64,000 nt of DNA from Corynebacterium sanguinis (GTDB lineage Bacteria; Actinomycetota; Actinomycetes; Mycobacteriales; Mycobacteriaceae), in NCBI RefSeq assembly GCF_007641235.1, contig NZ_CP038157.1, positions 310,001 through 374,000 on the forward strand, in the 5' to 3' direction. The notes below the pieces were generated by a model. The model was not told the origin of the DNA. It was given only the letters and a program-made list of their open reading frames with translations, and made no database searches. The position numbers and the translations under genes are program-made. This document shows positions 19,523-63,768 of this stretch, piece after piece; the first letter of the stretch is position 1, and every line of letters begins with the position of its first letter.

Positions 19523-19599
19523 GTGAGAAATGCTACCGCGCCGCCCCAACATCTCTCAGTTTTCCCAGGTCAGATTTTTGGCAGCGCAACATTTCTTAC
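19523..19599 (+). repeat. Three-arm CCCAGGTC intergenic element, copy A
   Basis: A 77-bp element between the fas stop and a convergent gene. Arm W is gtgagaaatg (19523-19532). Inverted copies lie at 19550-19558 (catctctca, one mismatch) and 19590-19599 (catttcttac, one mismatch). The core tttcccaggtc begins CCCAGGTC at offset 41. Arm order and spacing match the copies at 36749, 41577 and 63692 although the arm word differs. Confidence 0.75.
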
Positions 19600-19618: not shown

Positions 19619-20008
19619 CTACCGCTGGGACGCAGCGGTCCACGTACTGTCTTCGATGAGTTCCATTTTCCGGCGGTCACTTTCCAACAGCTCCACGAGC
19701 CGGCGTGTGATAAGGTAGACGGTTCCGTTCTCCACACCGCGGCCGATCAGGCCATCTACAATCCTCTCCCGATTGCCGAAGATGACGAACCAGGTGAACA
19801 GCTTGTCTAGGCCGAATGACTGCGCCTCTTGTTCCGTGATAGAGCCGAACTCTTTGTAGTGGCGGGAGGAGTCGCATCCGAGGAAATCGAGGAGGTAGAT
19901 ACCGTCCCAGATTCCAAACCACAACCAGTCCGGGTAGTCGAGAATATCCCTGAACTCGGCATCGCTGCCTTCAAGTTCGTCACGGAGTGTGACTACTCCT
20001 TTGAGCAA
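19619..20008 (-). CDS. Small hypothetical protein (DUF6508-like)
   Basis: A 129-residue acidic protein starting at TTG. Recognisable parts are an aromatic-rich stretch (YPDWLWFGIWDGIYLLDFL) and a segment FTWFVIFGNRERIVDGLIGRGVENGTVYLITRRLVELL. The latter resembles the R-x-R-F-x-G ... G-x-I-x2-I-x2-RL pattern I associate with DUF6508, an uncharacterised family. A stop lies five codons upstream of the TTG in frame, so the N-terminus may be truncated. It sits just after the large exonuclease-BRCT gene on the same strand. No function can be given. Confidence 0.5.
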   Translation of the reverse strand: MLKGVVTLRDELEGSDAEFRDILDYPDWLWFGIWDGIYLLDFLGCDSSRHYKEFGSITEQEAQSFGLDKLFTWFVIFGNRERIVDGLIGRGVENGTVYLITRRLVELLESDRRKMELIEDSTWTAASQR

Positions 20009-20112
20009 CTCGCGGGTGTGTCATTTTCTCTGGTGAAATTCTCATGCCCCAAGAATACGTAGACACACGACATGGAGGCTGCCGCTTTCGAAGAGTGGGC
20101 AGACACCGTTTT

Positions 20113-23100: not shown

Positions 23101-23271
23101 GTGGACAAAGCTGTTGGGGATGTCGCGGTTGGGCTGTACAAGGGTGTCCCAGGTGGATTCGACGGCTAAAGAACTGTCAAGGAGAACTAGGCCGATTTCG
23201 ATGATCCGATCGCTGGCACTGAATCCGGTTGTTTCCAGATCGATGACGGCGAATCCCGGTGTTGTAGACAT
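20113..23271 (-). CDS. DEDDh exonuclease-BRCT protein with sigma-70 region 4-like helix-turn-helix
   Basis: A 1052-residue multidomain protein. Residues about 5-165 are a DnaQ-type DEDDh exonuclease: DLETTG (D11, E13), HNASFERRFL, and PHAALADA (H147, D152). Motif II has Glu94 where Asp is usual. About 215-300 is an all-helical TerB-like stretch. About 315-400 is a BRCT domain (GDRVAFTGSLDLPRAEW, KKTVVVVAGNPDSMSGKAAR). Then come a helix-hairpin-helix (LRSLQGVGEKRVRRLV) and a sigma-70 region 4-type HTH (LEELGAQFGVSRERVRQLE). A long C-terminal part has further winged-helix-like segments. The domains fit DNA end or nick processing. The ATG overlaps the stop of a decayed upstream frame (TAATG). 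I know no characterised protein with this full order. Confidence 0.75.
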   Translation of the reverse strand: MSTTPGFAVIDLETTGFSASDRIIEIGLVLLDSSLAVESTWDTLVQPNRDIPNSFVHGITATDVVKAPAFGEVAPQLAGLLTGRIPVAHNASFERRFLTMEFRRAGVDTNVDSVGWTDTQALSKRILGCAKLEQALAVVGIENARPHAALADALATAELLGVLAREYGASVDPGSRVVAEPAEPAEAPRVGLLSRTLETAKSKHWLAGLADNLPSNSDADVERYRKALAASLVDRSLSASEIAQLSAIAVQDGLSFDDIALIHEDFIRQLAVTAWLDGVVTNDERAELTQLARQLGVADEVVDQLLAAPVGDGEAGEFRLRPGDRVAFTGSLDLPRAEWERRVVELGLSHGAVTKKTVVVVAGNPDSMSGKAARARELMIPIVSEVAFTRLIAAFEGIVAAPAEDVETSGVDEQRFPWLLDVEAEAQAPDEVALAWISHKPDAPLHHLSPGLSVDSQLELAHSSIAAAGQRWRQLYPRMLEATVYDLRSLQGVGEKRVRRLVEAVILAALDTDESAEQDSPAVVDDMGLSSSIYLDGDTYRGPREDVDVVAGWAALTGEPFPGTGREKVVSLFSACVAELVEVALRDERMLEIATQRWLGDATLEELGAQFGVSRERVRQLETKARDAYSVNSELSEATARAISRKFGRLILTEQAQAELPELWNEAVLPGTTFEQYFRKLYTLWDVNGRWIHAPGVPAELTTWIDGNIDTHGIFSTAAAAKHLDVDQNDLRELLLEAPSFFPLSDEEMARATNYQDRAVAVLAHDQHPMSLEDIAAHFRTESNIRSVANQLAVDPRITRVALNSYALTEWGMEEFSTISDWIARRIDDSPTGAVALSELLADAPQLGVSETSVRAYASSIDFRMDNGMVRRAVGDEEVIEDGPEDSKNMYLRGGTWRLLIAVTADHLRGSGFQVPRGAVGLYHVPVGGEVEVPSRLGGQFLRVNKLRQPSTSTIRRFLQELGSKEGDRVWLTFGPELFDVSPAPDRDSHLRGLARLLNEMGLDTALASDADAAMREVNLALGLSGDAPRRRSAAIFGHRGQDELADIIRSL

Positions 23272-23385
23272 TAGTTGTTACCGCTTTCCTTGCTAAGTTG
23301 CACCAAATCCCCCGCCGCGGGCTCGCAAACGCAGTTCACGATGCCGCCGGACGTGATCAGATCGACGGCCAGTCAATTCAGCCAA
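23271..23385 (-). pseudogene. Remnant of the 3' end of a GIY-YIG nuclease gene
   Basis: Read on the minus strand this segment encodes VDLITSGGIVNCVCEPAAGDL, closely matching ELIMSGDIVDYVYEPSVGEL at the C-terminus of the GIY-YIG protein at 25568-26725. DNA similarity continues into the preceding codons (FGVI versus LGVI), but a stop and a frame change interrupt it. The remnant ends with a TAA overlapping the ATG of the exonuclease gene. Nothing of the rest of the nuclease is visible upstream. It is a decayed paralogue or a scar of recombination. Confidence 0.65.
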
Positions 23386-23640
23386 TGACACCAAATTCTA
23401 TTCATTTATCGGAGATCTGCTCCCCTTGTCGGCGATTTTGGGCCCGGTCATTGCCCGCAATTACCAAACTCATGAACGTGGATACCGCGCCGCTGTCCCG
23501 GCGGAAAAGGGAGCAAACCGAGCGAAGATCTTGGATGGCTTGCCGCCTGAATAGGCGTGGGGGCTCGTCACTGCCCTCATTCAAAACTGCGCCAATACTT
23601 CCACGCGGACAGAGCCGCAACATCATAACATCGGCGTCAT
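23386..23640. other. Divergent intergenic region without a supported gene
   Basis: This stretch separates the GIY-YIG remnant from the 21-bp repeat array. Only short frames without family resemblance are present. It probably contains the promoter for the exonuclease gene on the minus strand, but no clear -35/-10 pair stood out. Confidence 0.5.
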
Positions 23641-23724
23641 CATATCGGTTCTCACTATCGTCATGTCAGTTTTCACTGTCATCATATTGGTTTTCACTGA
23701 TATCATGCCAGTCCTCACTGTTAT
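23641..23724. repeat. Four tandem 21-bp repeats upstream of the AlbA_2 regulator gene
   Basis: Four head-to-tail copies of a 21-bp unit (at 23641, 23662, 23683 and 23704) follow the pattern CATRTYRGTT then YTCACTRTYRT. A partial fifth, catgtcaggt, runs up to the start codon. The unit equals two helical turns, so every copy faces the same side of the DNA, as in iteron or operator arrays. It lies directly before the gene for an ATP-binding transcriptional regulator, so autoregulation is the obvious inference. Confidence 0.75.
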
Positions 23725-23734
23725 CATGTCAGGT

Positions 23735-25483
23735 ATGGGCGCATCCACTGTTGTTAATGACGGCACTAACGAAACCCTCTTCGGGCTGTACGAAATAGAA
23801 GTAGAGCTCGCGAAGCTTCGCAGAACGGGTACAGACAATGAACGCGTCGAGGTGAAGCGTTGCACAACGAAGGTGGGCACGAGCTTCTGGGAGACCGTCA
23901 GTGCATTCGCCAACACAGAAGGTGGCCTTATCCTTCTCGGGCTCGACGAGCCAGATTTTACCCCTACGAAAGGATTTGACTTCGAAAAAGTCCAGGACCA
24001 GGTAACCGGAGGTTTGCGGGAGGCGCCCAACGCGGAACCTAAGGTTACGCCGGTACCCGAGTACCGCATCGCTACCCTCACCATTGAAGAAACTGAGATT
24101 ATCGCGATTCGAATTGAGCCGCTAGCCGATTCGCTCCGACTACGAAAACAGATGCCATGCTTCGTCAGCTCAAAGCAGATAGCTAAAGGGAGCTACAAAC
24201 GAGTACTTGACCAGGATCAGCTACTCAATCAATACGAAATCTTTAGTCTGAGCCACAGGTTCGACGAGGACCTTACGGACCTGCAGCCCGTCGCAGAGGC
24301 TACTCTCGAGGATCTTTCGTCGGATCGCGTCGAGAATCTCATTGAGCGTCTCACCGATCTCGGCTCCCGCGTCGGAGACGATGCATCGTCTACCAAAGAA
24401 ATACTAATCAGATTGAAAGTGGTCGCTAATGGTAAGCCGACACTTTCTGGTTTATTGGTCTTTGGTGGCTACCCACAACAGTTTTTTCCGCAGTTCTTCA
24501 TCGATGTCACTACGCATCCGGGACTGGAGAAAGGAACCGGGACCGGAGGACAACGATTTCTGACTAGAAGAAGATGTGACGGCGGGATGCCTCTTGCCAT
24601 CGATGATGCAGTGCAAGCAGTACTAAAAGAACTACGAACCAGGTACGTGGAATCTGAAGGAACCATTCGCGAAGAAAAAGAAGTACCTCCGATTGCCATC
24701 CGTGAGGCAATCGCGAATGCGGTAATGCACCGGGATTACGGCGAATACCAAAGAGGCCAGCAAATCGCAGTAGACATCTACCCTGACCGTGTCGAGATAA
24801 CCAGCCCTGGTGGGCTGTGGGCGGACCGCACGGAAGACAACATCACAGATGGGCGTTCTGTATCGCGGAATACCGGTCTTGCGAACTTGCTTAGCTATGT
24901 CATCGATGCCGACCTTAAGCAAGTCGCGGAGAATCAGGGCAGCGGAATACCCCGCATGTTGAAGGCGATGCAGGAAAGCGGGCTCCCGAGACCGGAATTC
25001 AAAGACAAGATCTCGACATTCACTGTGACACTGCCGAGGTTTGGGTTACTCACACATGAGGCTCGGCAGTTTCTGGATACCTATGGACACGGTAAGAACA
25101 ATTTTCAAGATATTGCTCTCACCCTCGCTCGCGACCTAGGAGCGGTCTCACCGCAGGATCTTCGCAGGCATGTCGGCATGGACAGCGACGATGCCAGGGC
25201 TGAACTCGGCGACCTCGCCCGGCAACGCCTGCTTCGCGAAACTGCTCCGGACCATTTTGTCCTCCGTACAAGTGACGTACCCACTGGAACATCAGCTGCA
25301 ATCCTTGAAGTTCTTCACCATGACAAACCCTTGAAAACTCAAGAGATAGCCGAATTGACCGACCGGTCCCCAGCGACGATCAGGCTCCACCTTCGGGAAC
25401 TCGTCAGTTCTGGATTAGTCATTGCAACCGCCCCTCCGACCAGTAGGAACAGAGCCTACCGACTTGCACACGCGGTCGCCTAG
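23735..25483 (+). CDS. AlbA_2-domain ATP-binding transcriptional regulator
   Basis: A protein of about 582 residues. The N-terminal AlbA_2 (Schlafen-like) domain has ERVEVKRCTTKVG and SFWETVSAFANTEGGLILLG. A GHKL-type HATPase_c_4 domain has PIAIREAIANAVMHRDY, VEITSPGGL and NTGLANLL with GSGIPRMLKAM. A C-terminal winged helix has SPATIRLHLRELVSSGL. The ATG at 23735, directly after the repeats, is preferred. The longer frame from 23663 would translate the repeats into a 7-residue periodic hydrophobic leader, which is unlikely. Such proteins are common regulators in mobile and defence loci. Base composition is lower in GC than the core genes. Confidence 0.82.
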   Translation: MGASTVVNDGTNETLFGLYEIEVELAKLRRTGTDNERVEVKRCTTKVGTSFWETVSAFANTEGGLILLGLDEPDFTPTKGFDFEKVQDQVTGGLREAPNAEPKVTPVPEYRIATLTIEETEIIAIRIEPLADSLRLRKQMPCFVSSKQIAKGSYKRVLDQDQLLNQYEIFSLSHRFDEDLTDLQPVAEATLEDLSSDRVENLIERLTDLGSRVGDDASSTKEILIRLKVVANGKPTLSGLLVFGGYPQQFFPQFFIDVTTHPGLEKGTGTGGQRFLTRRRCDGGMPLAIDDAVQAVLKELRTRYVESEGTIREEKEVPPIAIREAIANAVMHRDYGEYQRGQQIAVDIYPDRVEITSPGGLWADRTEDNITDGRSVSRNTGLANLLSYVIDADLKQVAENQGSGIPRMLKAMQESGLPRPEFKDKISTFTVTLPRFGLLTHEARQFLDTYGHGKNNFQDIALTLARDLGAVSPQDLRRHVGMDSDDARAELGDLARQRLLRETAPDHFVLRTSDVPTGTSAAILEVLHHDKPLKTQEIAELTDRSPATIRLHLRELVSSGLVIATAPPTSRNRAYRLAHAVA

Positions 25484-25567
25484 GCTCGCTCCGCTCGAGT
25501 CCTGGGTAGTGGTGCTCACCGACTCCTGTGCCCCTTTGCCGCTTCCGAGGTCGAGCTCCCCCCTCGC

Positions 25568-26725
25568 TCACCCCTCGCCCGGTAGCGGGACCAGCTCCCC
25601 CACCGACGGCTCGTAGACGTAGTCCACGATGTCGCCCGACATGATCAGCTCAATGGCCTGGTCAATGACGCCGAGCGGCACCATAAACCACTCTGTGGCG
25701 GCCACCGAGCCGCCAACCTCATCAACCACTGAGGCGTCGAGCCGTACTGACGCAAAAACCCGGTGCAGCAGGTGTTCGAGTGCCGAGGGACGTACGTTGT
25801 AGACGCGATAGTCCGCGACCACCTCCACCGGAGCATTGAGATACGTCGGACTTTTCTCAGCGCCGGCAATCCGCGCCGCGACAGTCCCCGTGGTGAATCC
25901 AATCTTGTACAGGTTCTCCAGGCCACGGAGATCCGGATGTTCACTGAGCGAGCGCAACACGTAAATATGCCCGGTGTCTACGTCGGCATCACCGATTTCG
26001 GTGGCGTCCATCCTCGCCCGCGTGAGCGCTTGGCCATTCGACTCGTAGAGTCGCGTGGCCAGCGATTCGCGGTACATGGAGGACTCCGTGCCATTTTCGA
26101 AGATGACGCGAAGCCGCGGCTTCGTCTCCCCCTCTAGCGGTTCGCGCACCTCCGCCACAAACGCCATCACACCGCTGGTGACGAAGAAGCGGCCCTCCTT
26201 GATGCTGCGTTCGCCGACGAAGGTGGTCAACTTCCAGTCGCCGCTGGCCAGTCCTGCATGTTTGTCGGCGAAGAGTTGCTCGAAGCGTTGGAAATCAGCC
26301 GCCTTGATCCGCGTGGCCCGGTCGTGATCGGTGTCAGGACTCTTGCGGGCGGGAAGGCTGGACACATCGAAGATGTCCGACACCGCGCCCACGAGGTCAT
26401 CCGAAGCCAGCAGATCATCTATCGAGGCCGGTGCCTTTTGCGGGGCGAGCAGGCCCAGATGGTCGACCTCACGCAACGCCTCCATCTTGTCTTCGCTGGC
26501 TCTGATCCCCACGAGCCGCGCACCGAGCTTTCGCTCCGAGATCGTCATCGTGTTCGGGTCGGGTTCGCGCCCGTTGGCCTCGACGAACTCGACAATCTCC
26601 CCGAAGGCCCGTGTCAGGCGGTCAGTCGCGGTGACCGGGGCCGGCTTTTCAGGGGTGTCCAGCAGCCCGTCTGTGTCGGAAGCGATCAGAGCGTCCAGTT
26701 GGGCGTTAATGTAGTCTTCGGTCAC
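25568..26725 (-). CDS. GIY-YIG (T5orf172-type) nuclease-family protein
   Basis: A 385-residue protein whose C-terminal third is a GIY-YIG/T5orf172 domain: GHIYVLRS near residue 251, LYKIGFTTGTVAARI, and then ALEHLLHRVFASVRLD and TEWFMVP. The N-terminal 90 residues carry an ANGREPDPNTMTISERKLGA helix pair that closely resembles the C-terminal end of the helicase encoded just upstream. It starts at a GTG overlapping the helicase TGA by 4 nt, so it is translationally coupled. It is the likely nicking or cleaving component of the MTase-helicase-nuclease operon. Target and activity are inferred. Confidence 0.82.
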   Translation of the reverse strand: MTEDYINAQLDALIASDTDGLLDTPEKPAPVTATDRLTRAFGEIVEFVEANGREPDPNTMTISERKLGARLVGIRASEDKMEALREVDHLGLLAPQKAPASIDDLLASDDLVGAVSDIFDVSSLPARKSPDTDHDRATRIKAADFQRFEQLFADKHAGLASGDWKLTTFVGERSIKEGRFFVTSGVMAFVAEVREPLEGETKPRLRVIFENGTESSMYRESLATRLYESNGQALTRARMDATEIGDADVDTGHIYVLRSLSEHPDLRGLENLYKIGFTTGTVAARIAGAEKSPTYLNAPVEVVADYRVYNVRPSALEHLLHRVFASVRLDASVVDEVGGSVAATEWFMVPLGVIDQAIELIMSGDIVDYVYEPSVGELVPLPGEG

Positions 26726-28686
26726 TTCCCTGCCTCCAATTCGGCTTTGCGTTGCGCTGCTGCGTTGCGGACGACAAGGAGGGCGTCGGCGAGCCTGCGC
26801 TCCTCACTGTCTTCGGTCCGCCGGTCGGGTTCCCTGCCGTTGGCCGTGATCCAGGCCCTCACTTGAGGGATCAAGGCGAGTGCTTCTTCGAGCGACATTT
26901 CCACGCGGGTTGCGTAGATGGAGTCGGAGATGAGCTTTAGCACCGACGTGTTCACGGACTTGGAGAGGATCTCGAAGGCCCGCTGGAACGGGTTGATGGA
27001 GTCAATCAGGTTGATGGTGAGGTCGTCGATGTTGACAAACTGGTTCGCCATCTCAATGAACCGCTTGTCACCCACCTGCTTTTCACGGCCTGATTTGATC
27101 ACGGAGTCGACCACCACGCGCTGGCGCACCTCTTCCACCTCGGTCTCGGTCAGATCCGGGTATTGCTCACGGATGATCTTGGGGATGAGCACCTTGTTCG
27201 TGGTTTGGGCCTCCACACTGCCGACGGCCGCACGCGCAAATGTGTCGTCCTGCAGGATCTTCGCCTTGAGGTCGTTGAGGTCGGTGGACACGATCTGCCG
27301 CACCCGGTCCGTGGACGGTTCTTTCAGCCCGGAGATTTTCAGGTTGTTTCCCTCGCTGGTGTCATTCGGGTCTTTCTTCGCCTTAAAGTTGAAGTTCTGG
27401 GCGAGGACCTGCTCCATGAGAAGGGAGGCGGTGATCGCCTTGAGCATGTTGTTCACCGACACCGTCACCTCGCTCTGCGAGGCATCAGGCTCGGCCAGCA
27501 GGTTGGTGAACTGCGCGTGCAATTTACCCTCAACGTCGCGGGTGACGCGGCCGATGATCTGGATGATCTCCGTCAGCGACGCCCGGTACCCCACGGTCAG
27601 CGCGTGCTCCGCAAAGGGCCAGTCGAAACCCTCTTTCGCCATTCCCAGCGCGATGATGATGTCAACTGCGTCGCGGTCCTTCGACGCGGAGTCCACCAGG
27701 TACGCAAGTGTGCGGGCGCGCGCCTTCTGGTCGGTGTCATCCACCAAGTCCGCAATGCGGAGGATGTCGCCGGTATCGCGCCGCCGCACGAGAATGATGC
27801 CCGTGTCCTCCTCGGTGCCCACCACCTCACCGATGGTGTCCATGATGGAGCCGACCTCTTCGATCTTGTCTTTGGTGGACTCGCCGGAGTTCACGTTGGG
27901 GATGTGCAGGATGGTCTTCTTGTCCAGGTCGAGCACCTCGTGGATCGCATCCGTGTAGCGCCCCTGGTAGAAGTGGTGGCCGATCCCGAGGGATTTGAGG
28001 TGCTGGTACCCGTTGAGCTGGTCGTAGTAGTTGAAGGTGACGGGGGTGAACTTCGCCTCGTCCCCGGGCAGGAGCACGGGCAGCGCGTCGCCGCGGAAGT
28101 AGGAACCCGTCATGGCCACGATGTGCGCGTCGGAGCCGTTCATCACCTCGCGCAGCAGGTTACCCAGCCGGGAGTTTTCCAGGTCTGCGGAGACGTGGTG
28201 GAACTCGTCGATGGCCAGGACAGTCCCGTTGAAGTCGGCGGGCGTGAGCTTCTCAAAGGCGAAGCGCAGTGTCGCGTGCGTGCACACCAGGACCGCGTCC
28301 GGGCCTTCGAGGAAGCGGATAAACGCGTCCACCTTGCTCGCACTGCTACCGGGGGTGCACAGGTTGTTTTCCGGCTTGATATCCCAGTCGGCGAAAAACC
28401 CGTTGCTTGTGAGATTCGTCGGCGCGAACGAGCCGCCGATGGAGCGCTCCGGTACCGCGACGATGACTTTCTTACGCCCCTGGTTGAACAGCTTGTCCAG
28501 GCCGACGAACATCAGTGCTCGCGACTTGCCCGATGCCGGCGGGGCCTTGATCAACAGATACTGCGCGGCCCGCTGCTCGTACACGCGCCGCTGCATCTCG
28601 CGCATGCCCATCTCGTCAGTGCTAACCGATGTCCCGTCCTGCGCGTAGTACACCTCAACGAGGTTCTCCCGCGAATGCTTGCCCAT
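26722..28686 (-). CDS. Superfamily 2 DEAD/DEAH-type helicase of the restriction-like operon
   Basis: A 654-residue helicase. Walker A is APPASGKS (K54), motif II is IDEFHH (D160, E161), motif III is MTGSY, and motif VI lies in EIIQIIGRVTRD. Two RecA-like domains are followed by a helical C-terminus ending in ITANGREPDRRTEDSEERRL. AGGAG precedes the ATG, 8 nt after the MTase stop. By analogy with type I/III and BREX/DISARM systems it would translocate DNA for restriction. The partner genes here differ from those named systems. It is intact, although the MTase upstream is interrupted, and its expression may be reduced by the insertion. Confidence 0.87.
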   Translation of the reverse strand: MGKHSRENLVEVYYAQDGTSVSTDEMGMREMQRRVYEQRAAQYLLIKAPPASGKSRALMFVGLDKLFNQGRKKVIVAVPERSIGGSFAPTNLTSNGFFADWDIKPENNLCTPGSSASKVDAFIRFLEGPDAVLVCTHATLRFAFEKLTPADFNGTVLAIDEFHHVSADLENSRLGNLLREVMNGSDAHIVAMTGSYFRGDALPVLLPGDEAKFTPVTFNYYDQLNGYQHLKSLGIGHHFYQGRYTDAIHEVLDLDKKTILHIPNVNSGESTKDKIEEVGSIMDTIGEVVGTEEDTGIILVRRRDTGDILRIADLVDDTDQKARARTLAYLVDSASKDRDAVDIIIALGMAKEGFDWPFAEHALTVGYRASLTEIIQIIGRVTRDVEGKLHAQFTNLLAEPDASQSEVTVSVNNMLKAITASLLMEQVLAQNFNFKAKKDPNDTSEGNNLKISGLKEPSTDRVRQIVSTDLNDLKAKILQDDTFARAAVGSVEAQTTNKVLIPKIIREQYPDLTETEVEEVRQRVVVDSVIKSGREKQVGDKRFIEMANQFVNIDDLTINLIDSINPFQRAFEILSKSVNTSVLKLISDSIYATRVEMSLEEALALIPQVRAWITANGREPDRRTEDSEERRLADALLVVRNAAAQRKAELEAGK

Positions 28687-29103
28687 CGTGTCTCCTACTT
28701 CCTGGCCTTGCGCGCCCGCTTCACCGGCTTCGCCGCTTTCTCCGCGGCGATCATGGACTCATACATAGCAAACAGGTCAGACAACCGGTCCTCATCGGAT
28801 TCGTACACGCGTTTGGAGTACAGCGAATCCACCAGGTCATCGACGTCCTTGTGCGCCGCCCGCAGGTTGTCCGGCATGAGGTCGGGGTCGTAGAGCTCCG
28901 CCAGCGTCTTCTCGCAGTGGTACTCGCGCACATCAAGCACCCGTAGGGCCTTTTCAGTGAGCTTTCGCTTGTCGACGTCTGAAAGCTGCGGCACCGGGAA
29001 GTTGTTGTAGACGATGGTGTTGGAGTAGCGGTAATCGGTCTTCATCTTGCCTCCGACTGCGCGTGCCCACACCATGTGCATGCGCGATGTGAGCAAGGCA
29101 AAA

Positions 29104-29111
29104 AGCCACGG
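29104..29111. repeat. Target-site duplication, left copy (agccacgg)
   Basis: The octamer agccacgg directly abuts the left inverted repeat of the IS and recurs directly after the right one. Eight base pairs is the usual duplication length for IS256-family insertions. Confidence 0.9.
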
Positions 29112-30550
29112 GAGCGTGTCAAGTTGTTTGTGTGTGGGGCGTGATTATTAGAGGTAGGGCTCGAAGCGGTCAGGGTAAGCCACAGACATCTGGTTGATGG
29201 CCTGCTTCCAGTTCGTCACCCGCCTGCCCTCGATCAGCCGGCCGCTGGTCGCCGCGACCCGTTTGCCCTGCTTAGCACGCTTGGCGGCCCGTTTGTCCTC
29301 AATGTTGCAGATCATCAACCACACGGTTTTGATCGCAGACTCATCGTTGGTGAACTGCACCCGATTCCGGGTGGCTTTACGCAGCTCGTTGTTCATCGAC
29401 TCAATCGAGTTCGTGGTGTAGATCACCTTCCTAGCCATCGGTGGGAACTCAAGGAACGGGATGAACCGGTCCCACGCATCGCGCCACACCTTGACTGACT
29501 GCGGATACTTTTCCCCCAGCTCGGAGGCCTCGAACTCCGTCAACGCCGCCAGAGCGGTTTGCTCGGTGGGGGCGGTGTAGATCTTCTTCAACTCGGCGGA
29601 CACCGCCTTACGATCTCCATAGGCCACCCACCGGTTTGCTGCCCTGATCAGGTGGACGACACAGGTCTGGACCATCGAATCCGGCCAGGTGGCTTCCACA
29701 GCCTCCGGCAGACCCTTGAGCCCGTCACAGCACACGATGAACACATCGTGCACTCCGCGGGTAGCGAGGTTGGCACACACCTGCGCCCAGAACGAGGCTC
29801 CTTCCTCTTTAGCCAGCCAGATACCCAGGATGTGTTTGATCCCCTCCATGTCCACCCCGATAGCCAGGTACGCGGATTTGTTGACCACCCGGCCCCCGTC
29901 ACGGACTTTGATCCGTAACGCATCGAGGAAGACCACGGGGTAGAACTCATCAAGTTGGCGGTTCTGCCAGATCATGACCTCCTCGAGGACCGCATCGGTG
30001 ATCGCGGAGATTGTTTCATGGGAGATGTCCACGCCCATGGCGGTGGCCATGTGGTGCTGGATGTCTCGGACGGTCATGCCACCGGCATAGAGACTGATGA
30101 TCATGTCGTCGACGTCGGTCAGCCGGCGGGATCCTTTGGGCACCATTGTCGGCAGGAAGGATCCGTCACGGTCCCGGGGAACAGCGACATCGACCGGTCC
30201 GTAGTTCGAATCGACCCGCTTGGGGTAGGAACCGTTACGGGAATTGTTCTGACCAGCGGCTTCCTTGCTGTTCCGGTCGCCGTGCTGGTAGCCGAGGTGG
30301 GCATCCATCTCGGCGTTGAGGCCCCGGTTGATCGAGGCCTGGAGCAGGCCCCGGACGAGATCGTTGGCATCCGTGGTGGAGGTGCCGAGCTCGTCGATCA
30401 GCTTCGCCATCTCAGGATTGGCGAGGAGCTTTTCCTCGATCGCTTTGATCTTTGCGGAGTCCTCTGGGTTTCGTCGTGCCACGGTAGTCATTCTGGTTCA
30501 TCTCCTTGGTGTGAGGGGAATCCCTCACACACAAACCATCTGACACCCTC
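29112..30550. mobile_element. IS256-family insertion sequence (1439 bp)
   Basis: Ends are imperfect inverted repeats: left gagcgtgtcaagttgtttgt and right, reversed, gagggtgtcagatggtttgt, both continuing gtgtg-gg. An 8-bp direct repeat (agccacgg) flanks the element. It contains a single transposase gene with no passenger. Both ends and both target copies are intact, so the insertion is probably recent and potentially still mobile. It interrupts the MTase gene of the defence operon. Confidence 0.92.
29148..30491 (-). CDS. IS256-family (mutator-like) DDE transposase
   Basis: A 447-residue transposase. Family features include the VAVPRDRDGSFLP region, SLYAGGMTVRDIQ and VDISHETISAITDAV. The DDE residues are in VVFLDALRIKVRDGG and FIVCCDGLKGLPEAV, with the final Glu in TTNSIESMNNELRK. 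AAGGAG lies 10 nt before the ATG. The frame is uninterrupted, so the enzyme should be functional. It is oriented in the same direction as the host MTase gene. Confidence 0.95.
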   Translation of the reverse strand: MTTVARRNPEDSAKIKAIEEKLLANPEMAKLIDELGTSTTDANDLVRGLLQASINRGLNAEMDAHLGYQHGDRNSKEAAGQNNSRNGSYPKRVDSNYGPVDVAVPRDRDGSFLPTMVPKGSRRLTDVDDMIISLYAGGMTVRDIQHHMATAMGVDISHETISAITDAVLEEVMIWQNRQLDEFYPVVFLDALRIKVRDGGRVVNKSAYLAIGVDMEGIKHILGIWLAKEEGASFWAQVCANLATRGVHDVFIVCCDGLKGLPEAVEATWPDSMVQTCVVHLIRAANRWVAYGDRKAVSAELKKIYTAPTEQTALAALTEFEASELGEKYPQSVKVWRDAWDRFIPFLEFPPMARKVIYTTNSIESMNNELRKATRNRVQFTNDESAIKTVWLMICNIEDKRAAKRAKQGKRVAATSGRLIEGRRVTNWKQAINQMSVAYPDRFEPYL

Positions 30551-30558
30551 AGCCACGG
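30551..30558. repeat. Target-site duplication, right copy (agccacgg)
   Basis: Second copy of the octamer, immediately outside the right terminal inverted repeat. Collapsing the two copies restores the MTase reading frame exactly. Confidence 0.9.
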
Positions 30559-32949
30559 CTCGGCATCGTAAACGGCATTTGCAGCATCAGAGATCACTGT
30601 TTCAGAGCCAAGATACCCCATCGGGATATAGGTTCGCCTTTCCGAGGAAACCCGCGGAACAATGATCGAATCGGTGGGTTTATAGGCTACGTGCCAAAAC
30701 CGGTGAGGCTTATTAGCCATTTCTCGGGTATTCGCGGAAGTACTGGTGGCTCGGAAATTGCGGATTCTGACCATCTTAGGAGAAAACATCTCTTCGGCCA
30801 CGAGGCCTTCATCGTCCGAAAACCAAAGGCAATATCGATTACGACCTTGTATAAATTCACTCGCACCTATGTAACGCTTAATCCATCGACGAGCTTCCGG
30901 TATTTGATTTATGAGCTTATCTCTATCCTGCGGACCTAGAAGGAGCTGACCATCGTCTTTGGGAACAGAGCCAAGTGCCATCTTAGGAAGAGCAGAAGAG
31001 AGGGGTCTTAGCCGACGTGTGATTAGGATGTCTGGACCATCCGCGAGGTAGCCATTGATATTTCGAGCTTCGACAGCAACCGCCTCCGTAAAAATATACT
31101 TTGAGCGTCGTGACACCGGCCTTAACCCAATTACTACAACGGTTACGCCAGCATTCGCTTTAGCGTTGTTTTCCCATCTAAAGGAAGTATGCGCAAAACC
31201 AATTTCCACGCCTGCAGCGTTTAGAAATGGGTGCATCAACCCGACGTGTTCACCCTGAACCACTGAATTTGTTGATACAAAAGCCAGCGAGGCCTTAGTA
31301 CCGGAGATGTAGTCCGCGCCCTTAACAAACCACAAGGCAATATAGTCCAAGTCCTTTGAATATTTCCGGTCTTCGAACACGTACGGGTAATCCGCCTTCA
31401 TTTCCGGAGGCTGAGACTTTCCACCTTTATAAGGCGGGTTCCCAATCAAGTAGATCTCATCCGTCCCATTGTTCGGGCACACCTCGTTCCAATCCACACG
31501 CGCGGCGTTTCCGGCGCGAATCTGGCCCGTCTCCTTCAGCGGGATAAGCGGGATAGAGGTGCCGAACTGCTCGCGGAACTCCTCGTTCATCTGGTGCTTG
31601 GCAATCCAGAGGGAAAGGACAGCGACTTCGACCGCGAAGTCGTCGATCTCGATGCCGTAGAAGTTCTCGATGTTGATGCGGGATTCGGTGAACAGCATGT
31701 CCCCTTCGCGCAGGTCCGCCTGGCGTTGCAGGATGGCGTGCTCGAGGCGGCGCAGCTCCTTGTACGCGATGACGAGGAAGTTTCCGGATCCACACGCGGG
31801 ATCGAACACCTTGATCTCGGCAATCCTGTCCAGCAGCTTCTGCAGCTTCGGCGCGCTGTCGTAGCTCGCCTCAAACTCCTCTTTGAGCTCGTCGAGGAAT
31901 AGCGGCTCGATGGTCTTCAAAATATTGGGCACCGACGTGTAGTGCTGCCCCAGATTGGACCGCTTGCCCGGGCTGACCACCGCCTGGAACATCGAACCGA
32001 AGATATCCGGATTGATGTCCAGCCAAATCTGCGTGCCCAAGTCAATGAGCATCTGGCGGGCCGCGGCGCTAAACCGCGGCACCGTCAGGTTGGCGGACGA
32101 GCGGAAGAGTCGGCCGTTGACGTAGGGAAAGTCCCGCAGGTGCGCCGGCTTCTTCTCCGGGGCCGCCTCGTCGAGTGCTGCGAAGAGGTCTTTGATGAAG
32201 TCGTCGGTGTCGGAGCCGTCGGCAAGCGTGTGCGATGCCACCGCATTGGTGAACTGGTTGGGGCCGAAAATGCCCGTGTCCTCGGCGAAGTAGCAGAACA
32301 GCAGGCGGGTGAAAAACACATTGAGGCCGTGGCGCGTGTGCGGGTCCTCGAGGAGGCCGGGGTTGGCGGACGCGAGCTCGTCGAAAAGCGAGCCCATCTT
32401 CTCTGCCGCCCGCACATCCGCGTGCGATTCAGCCGTGTACTGCGCCTTCTCCATGCCCGCCCACGGCAGGAAGAAGGTGAAGTGCTGGCCAATCTCGCGC
32501 AGCGGGAAGGAGCGGTTCTCCGTCGTCTTGGTGTCGTAGGCGATGAGATCGCGGTAGTCGGTGACGATGACGAAGCGGGGCCGGTACTTCACCACCGCGG
32601 GCTCGACCCGCAGAGCCTCCAATTCGTGGAGCAGGTCCGCAGTGGTCTCGCGGAAGTACACCACGTTCTTCTGCGCGACCTCGCGGTCCGGATCTTCCGC
32701 GACGTTGAGCGAGCCGTTGCGCAGGCGGGTCACGTTGCCCTTGGAGCGACCGAAAGCGAGCAGCAGCTCGAAGATGAACTCGCGGTCGTAGCTATCGCGG
32801 CCGGCGAGCGGCTTGATGCGCTCCTCGATGTCTTTGAGGTTCAGACGTGGCACGTGGGGTCCTTTAATTTCACTTGTAGGGCTAAGCACACATATCTGAC
32901 AGGAAAGCTTACCGCGCCTTCGAGCTGCAGAGCCCTTAGAATCCTGGCC

Positions 32950-33399
32950 ATGGATGGGCACAGTTCCTTTACTCGGAGCGGTCGGAAACACCTACCCGTC
33001 TGGGCTTTTGCATCGATCATTGTGCTCGGAACCTTTGTATTACTGCTCTACACCGCATTGATCTTCGATAGCACCACCGAAGGGCGATCGCAGCTTCTTG
33101 ATTTCACCTCACGGATTGCCGGCCCCACAGGTGCCGCGACCATCGCCTGGCTAGGTGTGAACCAGACTATGAAGAACACAAGAGAACAGGATCTCATGAA
33201 GGAGTGGCACTCCAACCTGCGGTGGGCCACGGAATTATGCGCTCGTGAGGAGTCTAAGCAGGTTGCGCTGGGGATCGCTATCCTGGACTCTCTTGACGAC
33301 CTCCCATTTCTTGGGGAGAATGAGAACCAACTTATCGACGCTGTCGTACAGCAGGTAGTACAAGGCTTTGATGCGATGGATGGGAGGGATCACGAATGA
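32950..33399 (+). CDS. Small membrane-anchored protein next to the MTase
   Basis: A 149-residue protein, divergent from the MTase gene. It has a hydrophobic helix near residues 17-38 (VWAFASIIVLGTFVLLLYTA) and a weaker one around TGAATIAWLGVNQ. A cytosolic helical tail (TREQDLMKEWHSNLRWATELC, then an acidic helix) follows. Its TGA overlaps the ATG of the next short gene (ATGA). I recognise no family. The layout resembles small membrane proteins that accompany defence genes, but that is only context. Confidence 0.6.
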   Translation: MDGHSSFTRSGRKHLPVWAFASIIVLGTFVLLLYTALIFDSTTEGRSQLLDFTSRIAGPTGAATIAWLGVNQTMKNTREQDLMKEWHSNLRWATELCAREESKQVALGIAILDSLDDLPFLGENENQLIDAVVQQVVQGFDAMDGRDHE

Positions 33400-33557
33400 C
33401 CGCAAAGAGTTCACAACGCCCCTACGTCCCCAAAACAACCACCCCGCCAACTTCGGGGCAGATAGCCGCTGCAAAGCTGATTATCAAGCGTAATCAAGAG
33501 GGAAAGAGCAAGATCGAGATTACTCCCAAGATCCGTTACCTAGCTGAGTACCGCTGA
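33396..33557 (+). CDS. 53-residue basic protein coupled to the membrane protein
   Basis: This short gene begins at the ATG that overlaps the preceding stop (ATGA). It encodes a basic peptide: MTAKSSQRPYVPKT, a Pro/Thr linker, then the helix GQIAAAKLIIKRNQEGKSK and the strand-like IEITPKIRYLAEYR. Coupling and plausible composition argue that it is real. No family is recognised. It may bind nucleic acid, judging from charge alone. Confidence 0.5.
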   Translation: MTAKSSQRPYVPKTTTPPTSGQIAAAKLIIKRNQEGKSKIEITPKIRYLAEYR

Positions 33558-33602
33558 TTGCCGTTGAGATCGATCTCATCCTCTGGGTCGGACTACGCAG
33601 CG

Positions 33603-34174
33603 TCATCCAAGGGCGAACCGCTGTTCGCACTCGACGTTGGCAACCAGGTCATTCACCGCCCCGTAGGTGACATCCAGCACGGGGATTAAGACCTCATCGA
33701 ATTCATGGCGCTGCGCCTCGCCCCATGCTTTCATCCATTCCTCTGCTGCGGGCATTAGTTCCAGCGGGTGCCAGCTACGCCGTACCTTTTCAACCTTGGC
33801 CCCGAAGTGAGTGACAGTTTCGAAAACCGGAGGTGGGATTCATTGGCAACCGCGTCAGGAGGGCGTCGACAAACTGCGCGCACTCGAGCCCGAAGATGGT
33901 GACCGACCGGTTCGTGCGCCCCGAGTAGCTCGTGATTTTCATCTTGGCCGGGTTTGCTCGCCGCCCAGCGCAGCAAACTCGTGTCGATGGTGACGACGAT
34001 ACTGTCGAGGGCGCGCTCTATTTTTGCCAGAGTCTCGAAGGCATCACTCACAGGGCGGGCCAATGCGGCGGGAATATCCGCCCTGTCCCCTGGTTCGCCC
34101 ATCTCACCGGCGGCAAGTTACAACATCTCAGGGTAGAACTCTGCGACCCCGCCTACCACTGTGATCTCAGCCAT
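33603..34174 (-). pseudogene. Decayed gene of unknown family (nonsense and at least two frameshifts)
   Basis: Minus-strand fragments in successive frames form one protein-like sequence. It begins MAEITVVGGVAEFYPEML, then a TAA. The same frame resumes with MGEPGDRADIPAALARPV and ALDSIVVTIDTSLLRWA. A second frame gives KMKITSYSGRTNRSVTIFG, and a third gives VFETVTHFGAKVEKVRRSW and HEFDEVLIPVLDVTYGAV before a TGA. The fragments are collinear and each reads like real protein, so this is a broken gene and not intergenic noise. I do not recognise the family. Confidence 0.7.
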
Positions 34175-34221
34175 CTCGGTGCCATCCTCACCTCTCGTGT
34201 CCGAGGAAGGGAGCTTAGACT

Positions 34222-34247
34222 GTGCCAATAACACCGAGAGTGCCAAT
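34222..34247 (+). promoter_or_regulatory. Direct GTGCCAAT repeats upstream of the DUF262 gene
   Basis: The octamer gtgccaat occurs at 34222 and again 18 bp later at 34240, about 40-65 nt before the start of the DUF262/DUF1524 gene. The spacing is near two helical turns, so it could be an operator overlapping the promoter. No regulator can be named. Confidence 0.3.
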
Positions 34248-34287
34248 TAGGTGATTTAGCACGTTAATCCACCAGGAGGAGGCCGCC

Positions 34288-36717
34288 GTGAAAGGCGATG
34301 TGAAAGAGATCCACAAGCCATTCGACGGTATAGACAAGAAGCTCGTCATTCCCGTCTACCAACGGAATTACGACTGGACCACGAAGCAGTGCGAACGCCT
34401 GTTCAACGATATCGAGGAAATGGTTGACGAGGGACGCGAACGCCACTTCTTCGGGTCGGTGGTGGGTAACCCCGAAGACTCTTTTACTTGGGTGGTTATC
34501 GACGGTCAACAGCGCCTGACCACGGTCAGCCTGCTCATCCTCGCGCTCGTTCATGCGGTGCGTGACGGCGAGGTGGAAGAAGGATCAGAAGGATTAGCCA
34601 CACGGTTGATGAACAACTACCTGCTCCTGGGAGGCACCGAGAAGCAAAAGTTCAAGCTCAAGCCCATCAAGGACGACCAGGATTCTTACGAGAGATTGTT
34701 CGGTTCGCCGGAGTTCTTCAACGCCAGGTCCAACATCACGGCTAACTACTCCTATTTCAGGCAGCGCCTCCGGAAGACTCACCTCAACGCCGATGACCTC
34801 TGGAACAAGGGCATCTCGCGCCTACAGGTCATGCACCTTGACCTCGAACCAGGAGATGATCCGCAGCGCATCTTCGAGACCCTCAACTCAACTGGACTTG
34901 CGCTCAAGGAATCCGACAAGATCCGCAACCTCGTGCTGATGGATCTACCCCACGAGGAGCAGGAGCGTGTGTACGAAAAGTATTGGAACGAGATGGAGAA
35001 AAATGTCGAGTTCCGCACGGACACCTTCGTCCGCTGGTATCTAACCGCACAGACCTCCAAGACGCCGAAGGAAGCTGATGTTTTCGAAGCGTTCAAGGAC
35101 TACTCGGCAAAATCGACCAAGACCATGCCCGAGGTCGTCAAGGATCTGCATATGTTCTCCACCTTTGAGAAGGCTCTCACCAAAGCAGACACCGGCATTC
35201 CCGCCGTGGACCGCCGACTGCGCACTGCCAATATGGTCTTCGGTGACGTGGTCAAGCCTTTCCTGTGGCTGACCTACCGCGACCTCAAGGAGGGCGTGAT
35301 CAGCGCCGATGACTTCACGTCCCTCCTGGCGCTCATTGAGACGTACGTCTTCCGTCGCGTTGTTGTGTCCGTAGCATCCAACGCGTTAAACAAGATCTTT
35401 GCCAACGCATACTCCGAGCTGAGGAAATTGCGTCGTGGTGAAGAGAGGTACAGCGACATCCTCGCGTACATGCTGCTAAGCCGCGGCCACAGCGGCAGGT
35501 TCCCCGACGACGACGAGTTTGTCGAATCCTTCCGCACCCGAGACTTCTACCACATGAAACTGAGCTACCGACCCTACGTATTCCAAATGCTCGAGATAGG
35601 GCATTCCCTCGATGTAGCGGACATTGCCAACTACTTGGTTCAGGGCGAGCTCACCATCGAACACATCATGCCCCAGACTTTGAGCAATGCCTGGCGGGAA
35701 GAGCTCGGGCCCGACGCCGAGGCAATCCACCGTACTTGGGTCAACAGGATCGCCAACCTCACCATCACCGGTTACAACTCGCAGTACTCGAACTCGTCGT
35801 TCAAGACCAAAAAGGAAATGCCCGGGGGCTTCCACCAGTCGCCCTACACGATTAACAACTTCATAAAACGACAGACGACGTGGGGACTGGAACAACTCAG
35901 CGAACGCTCTGAAGAAATGGCCACCCGCGCGCTCGAGGTCTGGCCCATGCCACGAACTGACTTCGAGCCCGTCCGCGACGTACTTCAATCAGAACCCCTG
36001 GGCGAGGACACGGACTTCACCGGTGTCGAAGTGTCTGCAGTCGAGATCGGCGGCGCGAAGACAGCAGTAAAAACTTGGACGGACTTGTTGATCGCAGTTT
36101 TAAGATCGTGGATGGAAACCCACCGGGAGGCGGTGCTTTTCGCAGCCGAGTCCGAGGCCATGCTAGACACCCACAGCAGTGCGACCCACATACCGCCCAA
36201 CGCAAAGCTGCGCCAGGTTGACCCCGCCCTCTCAGTACGCGTCAACACCTCCACGGCACAGAAAGTTGCACTCATTCGAAGAATGTGTGAAGCGATCGGA
36301 TTCGACCCCAATGACATCACACTCTTCCGTAAGCACAAGGCGTCCGCTGGCCAAGATTCTCCCCCAGATCCAGACCCGGCCGAGGTATCCCCGTACAGCG
36401 CGATCACCGCTCTCCTGCCGCTGGTAGAGGAAGTAGAGGGAAGCATCCTGGATGAAACAGAGACAACCGAGCTGCGTGAGCATCTCATTGCCGCCCTGCA
36501 GCCGCGATTTCCCGCAGAGCCGCAGGCTGTACTGGGCGGGCAAGATCTCAAGTCATACCTATCCACCCACCCGGTGGAGACCCTCTCGGCCGAGGAGGTT
36601 TTGGCATGTCTCGCACTTATGGTTCTCATCTCTCGGATGATGGGTGGAAGCCAGATGCACGTACAGCTGCTCAACGGCGAGGTTGGAAAGCTGCTGCGGC
36701 GCCTTGACCACTTTTAG
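34288..36717 (+). CDS. GmrSD-like DUF262/DUF1524 (HNH) modification-dependent nuclease
   Basis: An 809-residue fusion. The N-terminal DUF262 (GmrS-like, NTP-binding) has LVIPVYQRNYDW and the signature VIDGQQRLTT, with IFETLNSTGLALKESDKIRN. The DUF1524 (GmrD-like) His-Me/HNH domain has TIEHIMPQTLSNAW near residue 458, then NRIANLTITGYNSQYSN and SFKTKKEMPG. A long C-terminal part (about 590-809) includes a homeodomain-like segment of the REase-associated type (TWTDLLIAVLRSW). Homologues are type IV enzymes cutting glucosylated or otherwise modified DNA. Start GTG with AGGAGGAGG. It would complement the adjacent MTase-helicase operon by attacking modified phage DNA. Confidence 0.85.
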   Translation: MKGDVKEIHKPFDGIDKKLVIPVYQRNYDWTTKQCERLFNDIEEMVDEGRERHFFGSVVGNPEDSFTWVVIDGQQRLTTVSLLILALVHAVRDGEVEEGSEGLATRLMNNYLLLGGTEKQKFKLKPIKDDQDSYERLFGSPEFFNARSNITANYSYFRQRLRKTHLNADDLWNKGISRLQVMHLDLEPGDDPQRIFETLNSTGLALKESDKIRNLVLMDLPHEEQERVYEKYWNEMEKNVEFRTDTFVRWYLTAQTSKTPKEADVFEAFKDYSAKSTKTMPEVVKDLHMFSTFEKALTKADTGIPAVDRRLRTANMVFGDVVKPFLWLTYRDLKEGVISADDFTSLLALIETYVFRRVVVSVASNALNKIFANAYSELRKLRRGEERYSDILAYMLLSRGHSGRFPDDDEFVESFRTRDFYHMKLSYRPYVFQMLEIGHSLDVADIANYLVQGELTIEHIMPQTLSNAWREELGPDAEAIHRTWVNRIANLTITGYNSQYSNSSFKTKKEMPGGFHQSPYTINNFIKRQTTWGLEQLSERSEEMATRALEVWPMPRTDFEPVRDVLQSEPLGEDTDFTGVEVSAVEIGGAKTAVKTWTDLLIAVLRSWMETHREAVLFAAESEAMLDTHSSATHIPPNAKLRQVDPALSVRVNTSTAQKVALIRRMCEAIGFDPNDITLFRKHKASAGQDSPPDPDPAEVSPYSAITALLPLVEEVEGSILDETETTELREHLIAALQPRFPAEPQAVLGGQDLKSYLSTHPVETLSAEEVLACLALMVLISRMMGGSQMHVQLLNGEVGKLLRRLDHF

Positions 36718-36748: not shown

Positions 36749-36824
36749 GTGCACAATGTTGCCGATCCGGGGCAACATTGTGCACTTCCCCAGGTCAGGT
36801 TCTCAGTCGCGCAACATTTTGCAC
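36749..36824 (+). repeat. Three-arm CCCAGGTC intergenic element, copy B
   Basis: The arm agtgcacaatgttgcc (36748-36763) and a perfect 16-bp inverted copy (36771-36786) enclose a 7-nt loop. The core ttccccaggtcag follows, and then a second inverted copy gcaacattttgcact (36811-36825, one mismatch). Total length is 76 bp with the core at offset 40, as in the other members. It lies between the DUF262 gene and a co-directional DoxX-like gene. Confidence 0.8.
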
Positions 36825-36902: not shown

Positions 36903-37268
36903 ATGAACCTCCTCCGAAATTCGCTTGCCCCCGCCCTTGCTACGGCCGGCATGCTTCACTTCGTCAGACCCAAACCCTTCGACGGGATCGTTCCTCCCCA
37001 ACTGCCCGGCTCGCAGCGCTTCTACACCTACGCCTCCGGCGTGGCGGAACTAACCACGGCGGCGCTGCTCGCCGCCCCGCGTACCCGCAAAGTCGGAGGC
37101 CTGAGCGCAGCAGTGCTCCTGACTGCGGTCTGGCCGGCGAACATGTACATGGCGTGGCTGTGGCGGCGCAAACCGTGGTACCTCCAGTTGATCACCATCG
37201 CCCGGGTCCCGCTGCAGGTTCCTATGATCCGCGCGGCGTGGGGCATCTACAAGGGCCGCAAGGGTTAG
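36903..37268 (+). CDS. DoxX-like membrane protein, copy 1
   Basis: A 121-residue integral membrane protein with about four hydrophobic segments. It contains the DoxX-type phrases GMLHFVRPKPFDGIVPPQLP and YASGVAELTTAALL, and ends WGIYKGRKG. The ATG before NLLRNSLAP is preferred over a GTG-type start five codons earlier. A close paralogue lies at 50199-50561. Each copy is followed directly by a DUF3253 gene. DoxX family roles (redox or sulfur metabolism) are poorly defined, so no reaction is assigned. Confidence 0.75.
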   Translation: MNLLRNSLAPALATAGMLHFVRPKPFDGIVPPQLPGSQRFYTYASGVAELTTAALLAAPRTRKVGGLSAAVLLTAVWPANMYMAWLWRRKPWYLQLITIARVPLQVPMIRAAWGIYKGRKG

Positions 37269-41576: not shown

Positions 41577-41653
41577 GTGACAAAATCGGCGTTCATCGTG
41601 CGGATTCTGTCACTTTCCCCAGGTCACATTTTGTGTCGTGCTGATTTTGTCAC
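41577..41653 (+). repeat. Three-arm CCCAGGTC intergenic element, copy C
   Basis: Arm gtgacaaaatc (41577-41587), inverted gattctgtcac (41603-41613, one mismatch), core tttccccaggtc (CCCAGGTC at offset 41), and a second inverted gattttgtcac (41643-41653, perfect). It is 77 bp long. Unlike the other copies it lies between divergent genes (SDR and gltB), upstream of the AmtR-like boxes. Confidence 0.8.
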
Positions 41654-63691: not shown

Positions 63692-63768
63692 GTGACAAAA
63701 GTTGTACCGACGCCGAAAACGACCTGGGAAAATGACAAAAGTTGCACCAGCGGTGCAACTTTTGTCAC
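63692..63768 (-). repeat. Three-arm CCCAGGTC intergenic element, copy D
   Basis: On the minus strand: arm gtgacaaaagttgcacc, a 3-nt loop, an inverted copy of 16 matching bases (63733-63748), core ttttcccaggtc (offset 40), and a second inverted copy ggtacaacttttgtcac with one mismatch. It is 77 bp long. It lies between pyc and the citrate-synthase-family gene, both on the minus strand. Confidence 0.8.

Follow-up and report, generated by a model that had tools for sequence, protein, structure and literature searches.

Short Corynebacterium repeats with one constant core and interchangeable arms that seem to co-evolve with an adjacent nuclease-like gene

A 64,000-nucleotide stretch of the Corynebacterium sanguinis genome (the window; bases 310001-374000 of a single 2.36-Mb contig) contains four intergenic elements of about 77 bp, each composed of an arm word W, an inverted near copy W', a core and an inverted far W'. 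They belong to a large, apparently undescribed Corynebacterium DNA family in which one constant core is combined with interchangeable, matching arms. The arm types often adjoin a fast-changing gene for a nuclease-like protein, termed Y here, and seem to co-evolve with it. The comparisons described below establish that the elements form a family with a constant core and arms specific to each class, as well as the linkage to Y, the co-divergence of Y and arms, and the fast evolution of Y. The elements are probably short, non-autonomous repeats served in trans by Y, reminiscent of repetitive extragenic palindromic (REP) sequences and the REP-associated tyrosine transposases (RAYTs) but built on an unrelated nuclease.

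The coordinates and the layout of the four elements were correctly anticipated by the original prediction, which was made from the window alone. Element 1 (19523-19599, plus strand; word GTGAGAAATG) has W at 19523-19537, near W' at 19546-19559, the core CCCAGGTC at 19564-19571 and far W' at 19585-19599, and as a training sequence of the covariance model described below it scores E 1.1e-21. Element 2 (36749-36824, plus strand; word GTGCACAATGTTGC) has W at 36749-36763, near W' at 36771-36785, the core at 36789-36796 and far W' at 36810-36824. In element 3 (41577-41653, plus strand; word GTGACAAAATC), which lies between divergent genes, the corresponding parts are at 41577-41591, 41599-41613, 41618-41625 and 41639-41653. 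Element 4 occupies 63692-63768 on the minus strand and carries the canonical word of the genome, GTGACAAAAGTTGCA, with W at 63754-63768, near W' at 63733-63746, the core at 63721-63728 and far W' at 63692-63706. CCCAGGTC itself begins at 19564, 36789 and 41618, and the minus-strand copy reads GACCTGGG at 63721. The three arms of an element had been said to agree to within one mismatch, which holds nearly as claimed over words of 10-17 letters; the near arm of element 1 differs from W at 2 of 10 positions. Over 14 nucleotides, W matches the near and the far arm at 9 and 10 positions in element 1, 14 and 12 in element 2, 11 and 12 in element 3, and 14 and 13 in element 4.

A covariance model of these four elements, run against the whole genome, returned 12 full-length copies, eight of them new (E 7e-18 to 4e-4). 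Six of these copies are arranged as three tandem pairs, whose periods are 93, 93 and 112 bp. A second model, built from the 12 copies, was run on 201 genomes of the genus, the window genome included (genomes and loci are cited by G and L numbers). Copies in other Corynebacterium genomes, which the original prediction had proposed to look for, are present: at E <= 0.01 the model matches 27 of the 201 genomes, several of these being probably noise, and at E <= 1e-4 it matches 17. The element set analyzed below comprises 83 sequences, namely the 12 own copies and 71 elements from 16 related genomes; half-hits on the reverse strand, the majority of the short hits and ten genomes whose hits were all weak are not included. 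Constant across the family are the nearly invariant core TTTCCCCAGGTCG and the total length of about 77 bp. The arm word differs from genome to genome (GTGAGAAATGTT in G041, GTGAAAAATGTT in G058, CTGAAGGATTC in G121, TGTAAAACC in G189 and GTGAACT in G129). On reading the elements, the distance from the core to the element end is rigid at 36-37 bases, and that from W is variable, with the core at 32-44. A 93-bp tandem period recurs in several arrays with unrelated linkers, next to other periods of 81, 82, 103 and 112 bp; in what is a small sample, this recurrence suggests helical phasing of a bound protein. One array in G058 (1145180-1145760, L353) has an 81-bp period; it contains the constant core, and its arms, for example GAGGTCTAGTAGCTAGACCTC, are palindromic.

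The covariance models of Rfam 15 gave no match in the window at gathering scores and none in eight loci at E 0.5. A word search of the paper on tagged palindromic repeats finds no mention of Corynebacterium, Actinobacteria or Mycobacterium (PMC3733652). As originally suspected, no described family with this design came to light: Rfam gave none, and such elements are described in none of the papers listed by literature searches that most subscription journals lay outside. Carriage by a plasmid or phage was also considered, and element 4 matched nothing in the plasmid or phage collection.

Within the 12 own copies, W pairs with near W' in 81.5% of cells and with far W' in 85.6%, and changes on both sides are seen in 7 of 14 W-near and 6 of 15 W-far pairs. 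Averaged over the 83 elements, the W-near match is 10.0 of 14, compared to 9.41 after shuffling arms within genomes (0 of 2000 shuffles as high) and 7.87 after shuffling across all genomes; the corresponding values for W-far are 10.45, 10.00 (1 of 2000 as high) and 8.11. Because the all-genome shuffles drop far below the within-genome shuffles, arm matching mostly reflects a genome-wide word, with a smaller element-level part. The paired changes and the shuffles bear out the original view of a real family whose arms are kept matched while the word drifts. The arms do match better than shuffled ones, even within genomes, but most of that matching is the genome-wide word, a property that the prediction had missed along with the tie between the words and the neighboring nuclease-like gene.

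The possibility of a two-state hairpin, in which W pairs with either the near or the far arm, had further been raised. Several elements have a degenerate near arm, and in whole classes, such as class I of G049 and the Y-adjacent element of G024, none was seen by eye. Mismatches of the G.T and A.C kind number 66 versus 73 for W:far and 61 versus 44 for W:near, with no clear strand preference. In the absence of a G-U excess, and with some classes devoid of a near arm, a two-state RNA hairpin is unlikely, and the same counts disfavor an RNA hairpin as the selected form. Element-wide gene conversion is likewise disfavored as the sole cause of the shared words: copies from the same genome share their arms and, on reading, mostly not their interior spacers.

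Clustering of the proteins encoded next to the elements (G020 left out) identified Y as a recurring unnamed protein of about 300-335 residues on the far-arm side. In its predicted structure, an AbiEi-like half is joined to a Vsr / I-Bth0305I-like nuclease half, and the catalytic domain is predicted to have a PD-(D/E)XK-type fold of the Vsr / EDxHD superfamily, with putative cleavage activity. No Pfam or NCBIfam family matched Y at its cut-off (the nearest Pfam family, DUF559, stayed below its cut-off at E 0.006), and neither the PADLOC families nor, by sequence, the solved structures yielded a match. Among 28 relatives in the protein collection, the four with a name are each called "hypothetical protein". 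A search profile of nine Y proteins matched at E <= 1e-15 in 71 of the 201 genomes; 33 have a strong Y, meaning a score of 185 bits or more, a threshold chosen once the list had been seen. In each of 13 pairs from orthologous sites, the Y proteins share 44-75% identity and the adjacent ABC or LepA proteins 93-98%. In the window genome, the gene for Y is itself frameshifted (G000 720040-720582; L021, L022), with its N-terminal part in another frame, and the 12 elements of this genome may therefore be a fading set.

At 12 loci in 11 genomes, gathered by the neighbor clustering, a further translated search and a genome search, Y is the convergent neighbor on the far-arm side within about 35 bp of an element. 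These loci mostly fall at two orthologous sites, ABC-Y and lepA-Y. Sixty Y loci, 54 of them outside G149, were taken for a broader comparison. A core match of at least 10/13 occurs within 120 bp of the stop codon at 24 of the 54 Y loci (the six G149 loci left out), compared to 1 of 78 control genes from the same loci; among window genes the count is 3 of 33, with elements 2 and 4 being within reach. This test replaced a stricter one, in which 12-mer arm pairs were required together with any of six core-like hexamers and which gave 17 of 60 Y loci versus 10 of 103 controls, because the spacing and hexamer limits of the latter missed arrays. Inverted repeats can also be seen by eye at the 3' regions of several Y genes that fail the tests. 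A de novo scan, which used neither the model nor its words and rewarded the core, scored 18 of the 60 Y loci above the shuffled maximum of 36, with values up to 54. Twelve of these 18 end between -5 and +10 bases from the Y stop; seven were already known, and one (L246) is a simple repeat. The new words that it retrieved include GGAACTTT at a second Y of G189, TGTAAGAATTTA in G177 and TGAATTACTCC in G048, the last resembling the word of the dispersed element in that genome. Finally, all 17 genomes with an element model match at E <= 1e-4 fall among the 33 of 201 strong-Y genomes (hypergeometric 6e-16).

The correspondence extends from the position of the arms to their sequence. When 63 dispersed elements from 14 genomes were compared with the arms next to Y in their own genome, the mean match was 10.75 of 13, versus 8.26 (standard deviation 0.47) with permuted genomes, and none of 20000 permutations was as high. 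The own Y-adjacent arms rank first in 9 of the 14 genomes, whereas G179 fails (rank 5); G077, G069 and G193 did not serve as own-genome pairs, in six genomes the arms beside Y were chosen by eye, and the sets for G016 and G189 include the arms of a second Y. At fixed positions the word changes. The site at 719845/719938 of the window genome is also occupied in G020, G041, G058 and G095, between the same two genes and with an own word in each, and the equivalent site in G016 has an ordinary-looking, terminator-like hairpin followed by the core. The element sites are old; the arm words are not.

The core alone leads to further arm classes. In 24 of the 33 strong-Y genomes, the exact core 12-mer TTTCCCCAGGTC has 140 matches, 54 of them in G049 and G021 and none in G161, G009 and G103. 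Twenty genomes without Y, the first ones listed, contain 19 matches, with six in G019 and zero in 11 genomes, and the reversed 12-mer as a control has 0-1 matches per genome. An inverted 11-mer pair with 10 or 11 matches flanks 40 of 67 examined core sites in strong-Y genomes, while one shuffle of each gave no value above 9. Most sites picked by the core alone introduced new arm classes. In G049, the class GCACCAAATTCCC...GGGAATTTGGTGC has no near arm, and the class GAAAAAGTTCCC is the one beside its own Y; G059 and G024 have CCTGAATTC, CTAGCAGACAATG and CTGACAAATGTGA in common, where CTGACAAATGTGA once more adjoins Y. Perfect inverted arms of about 20 bp also accompany the core at two of the eight sites taken from genomes that lack Y, one in G008 (L301) and one in G028 (L284), which indicates that the family reaches beyond genomes with a recognizable Y. 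As a separate observation on the same pair of relatives, G059 (914100-916750; L372, L354) has about 1.9 kb that is missing in G024 (L364). Within the extra segment, which starts just past a CTGACAAATG-class element, two elements of the CCTGAATTC class lie in direct orientation and are almost identical.

Based on these comparisons, a simple model would assign a role to each part of protein and repeat. The AbiEi-like half of Y would bind the arm words W and W', so that the arms follow the specificity of Y, and the Vsr/EDxHD-like half would cleave or nick the element, the core TTTCCCCAGGTCG being the natural candidate site. Such a cut would permit copying of elements to other positions, tandem expansion or conversion, chiefly at the 3' ends of genes. 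Over long periods, Y and the adjacent element would diverge together without changing place, as is the case for RAYT genes and REPs. More tentatively, the system could represent a new class of nuclease-driven short mobile DNA, in which fast-evolving AbiEi-Vsr fusions each read their own word, act at the shared TTTCCCCAGGTCG, and thereby spread and maintain repeats of about 77 bp. It would then be a convergent counterpart of RAYT/REP with arms that can be swapped between classes and a constant site of action.

Several observations bear on mobility. G149 contains 14 dispersed, distant Y-family genes (about 125 bits). The six of these loci that were read (L224-L229) have about 2 kb in common, comprising Y and its downstream region, and those pairs that were compared are roughly 85-90% alike over it. 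Four of the six have a core match of at least 10/13 downstream, and the downstream regions of two loci contain arrays in which the word is CAGATCTGCCTGA and the core TTTCCCCAGGAC. This Y-family unit may be currently or recently mobile. Two elements of G058 differ at 3 of 78 bases and have unrelated flanks, and tandem copy number differs between close relatives, with three copies in G020 versus two in the window genome and two in G059 versus one in G024.

Other points weigh against service in trans by Y. Y and the elements share a clade, so the p-value of their co-occurrence ignores phylogeny; the alignment used to search for Y was itself built from element-adjacent Y proteins, and some Y-family match (at the E <= 1e-15 threshold) is found in as many as 71 genomes. 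A clean empty site was sought in G024 and G059 and none was found, since the flanking sequence either also bore an element or was interrupted. Nor did inspection by eye reveal a target duplication around the elements. It is important to note that binding of the arms by Y, cleavage at the core, and copying or movement by Y are steps that we infer.

Gene context is the basis of one alternative. Both neighbors were called, with a simple purpose-made gene caller, for 70 of the 83 elements. Convergent gene pairs flank 34 of the 70, against 29% expected by intergenic bases (p 4e-4, an optimistic value, as tandem and orthologous copies were counted separately and are not independent). Every gene orientation is represented, as the original prediction had maintained in setting aside a plain terminator, but convergent gaps are favored and gene 3' ends are preferred. 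The elements could thus be host-useful bidirectional 3'-end structures, terminators or mRNA-end hairpins between convergent genes, with an incidental link to Y. Some elements extend all the way from one stop codon to the other (G041:90695), and the terminator-like hairpin in G016 would fit as well. This explanation is nonetheless unlikely. Half of the classified copies lie elsewhere than in convergent gaps, the stem is followed by eye by no U-tract on the reverse strand and only by TTT or TTTT on the forward strand, and the mismatches lack a G-U excess. Terminators also have no need of a constant core or of an arm word shared across the genome.

About as improbable is an origin as ordinary miniature inverted-repeat transposable elements (MITEs), moved by a standard transposase with the same terminal repeats and with Y as a passenger or frequent neighbor. 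Terminal inverted arms, a length of about 77 bp, several subfamilies per genome and the exact end boundaries of the G058 pair are all consistent with such elements. Yet no longer element with the same ends, and no near-core-far end alone, occurs among the listed matches in the 201 genomes (strict filters, E <= 0.01; other arm classes were not searched in this way), and no clear target duplication is visible. Orthologous sites retain the element while the word changes, and both the adjacency to Y and the match to its arms would be left unexplained.

Equally doubtful is the possibility that Y is a regulator or defense nuclease, an AbiEi-like repressor fused to a nuclease, for which the elements are immobile operators or self-recognition sites. 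The elements stand downstream of Y, the promoter side having been scanned only roughly and on one strand, and the dispersed copies favor gene 3' ends; no PADLOC family matched, and the amplification in G149 suggests mobility. Very improbable, lastly, is a function as attachment (att)-like island integration sites with elements 1 and 2 as the two borders of a defense island: these two are in direct orientation at the island edges, the corresponding edges in G058 carry the elements that differ at 3 of 78 bases, and the extra G059 segment holds its two direct copies of one class, but the words of the two border elements in the window differ, no island is known next to most other copies (no systematic search was made), and no element was found at the corresponding places in G041 or G095.

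The island in question, a variable set of defense genes at 19619-36717 between elements 1 and 2, is context rather than part of an element. It encodes an exonuclease with a BRCT domain, a Schlafen AlbA_2 protein, a T5orf172 protein, a helicase, an MmeI-like protein and GmrSD, and its content is partly common to G058. Directly upstream of element 2 lies the GmrSD-type restriction endonuclease gene (34288-36717, plus strand; Pfam GmrSD_N/GmrSD_C), and the element starts 31 bp past its stop. The G058 homologue also has an element after it, with a different word, and G020 differs at the site of element 2 and has an assembly gap there. Within the island, the MmeI-like type IIL restriction-modification gene (28695-32991) appears split by a Mutator-family transposase gene (29148-30491) into a C-terminal piece at 28695-29096 and the remainder at 30412-32991. 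Seven copies of this insertion sequence with 99-100% identity are present in G058 (L174, L179, L183, L187, L190, L193 and L195), which suggests recent transfer between the window species and G058. Beyond element 2, a small gene at 36903-37268, with a weak MauE match below the cut-off, has a second copy of 72% identity about 13 kb away (genome positions 360250-360617).

REP/RAYT systems (REPtrons), whose enzymes are HUH transposases, are the main known case of short palindromic repeats served by a nuclease of their own. The likeness to REP/RAYT includes short palindromic repeats dispersed at gene ends, a single or few-copy nuclease-type gene with a repeat alongside, co-divergence of gene and repeat as seen in the permuted arm test, and orthologous genes that stay put while changing faster than their neighbors. 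According to two studies, RAYT genes and REPs coevolve at a fixed position, and the gene evolves fast (PMC2817692; PMC8266576). Of the two inverted repeats of the dispersed class expected to flank a REPtron nuclease gene, an element is found on the downstream side of Y, the upstream side having been scanned roughly and on one strand. There are also differences. The RAYT domain Y1_Tnp (PF01797) is found in 5 of the 201 genomes, and neither the 27 genomes with element matches nor the window genome has it, so RAYT-mediated REP was rejected. The fold predicted for Y is of the Vsr/PD-(D/E)XK type and not HUH; a GTAG or GGAG head starts none of the 83 W arms; and the elements combine a constant internal core with variable arms. 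REPs usually exceed 100 copies per genome, compared to 12 found by the model in the window genome and up to 32 exact cores in G049.

Other known systems match in part. Like MITEs, the elements are small and non-autonomous, fall into several subfamilies and have terminal inverted repeats (the W:far pairing of the 12 own copies); they differ in their constant core, in a third, internal arm in many classes, in the lack of a transposon with matching ends among the listed matches, and in the change of word at fixed orthologous sites. Y differs from EDxHD or Vsr-like homing endonucleases such as I-Bth0305I in its AbiEi-like N-terminal half and its adjoining repeat, and no intron or intein was seen at Y, though none was searched for. 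The N-terminal half of Y also resembles AbiEi of the AbiE toxin-antitoxin system, which binds inverted repeats, with the difference that it is fused to a nuclease. The RAYT domain and head motif were looked for and are absent from the elements and their genomes, and no described family was found. The proposed working logic is known from REP/RAYT, and the parts differ from those of that system.

If the proposed role of Y is correct, the REP/RAYT way of life would have evolved more than once, here on an unrelated nuclease, and both the scattered intergenic repeats of Corynebacterium and an unnamed gene family would be explained. The family also offers many natural enzyme-word pairs, several per genus and even two per genome, for studying how the specificity of a DNA-binding protein and its sites change jointly.
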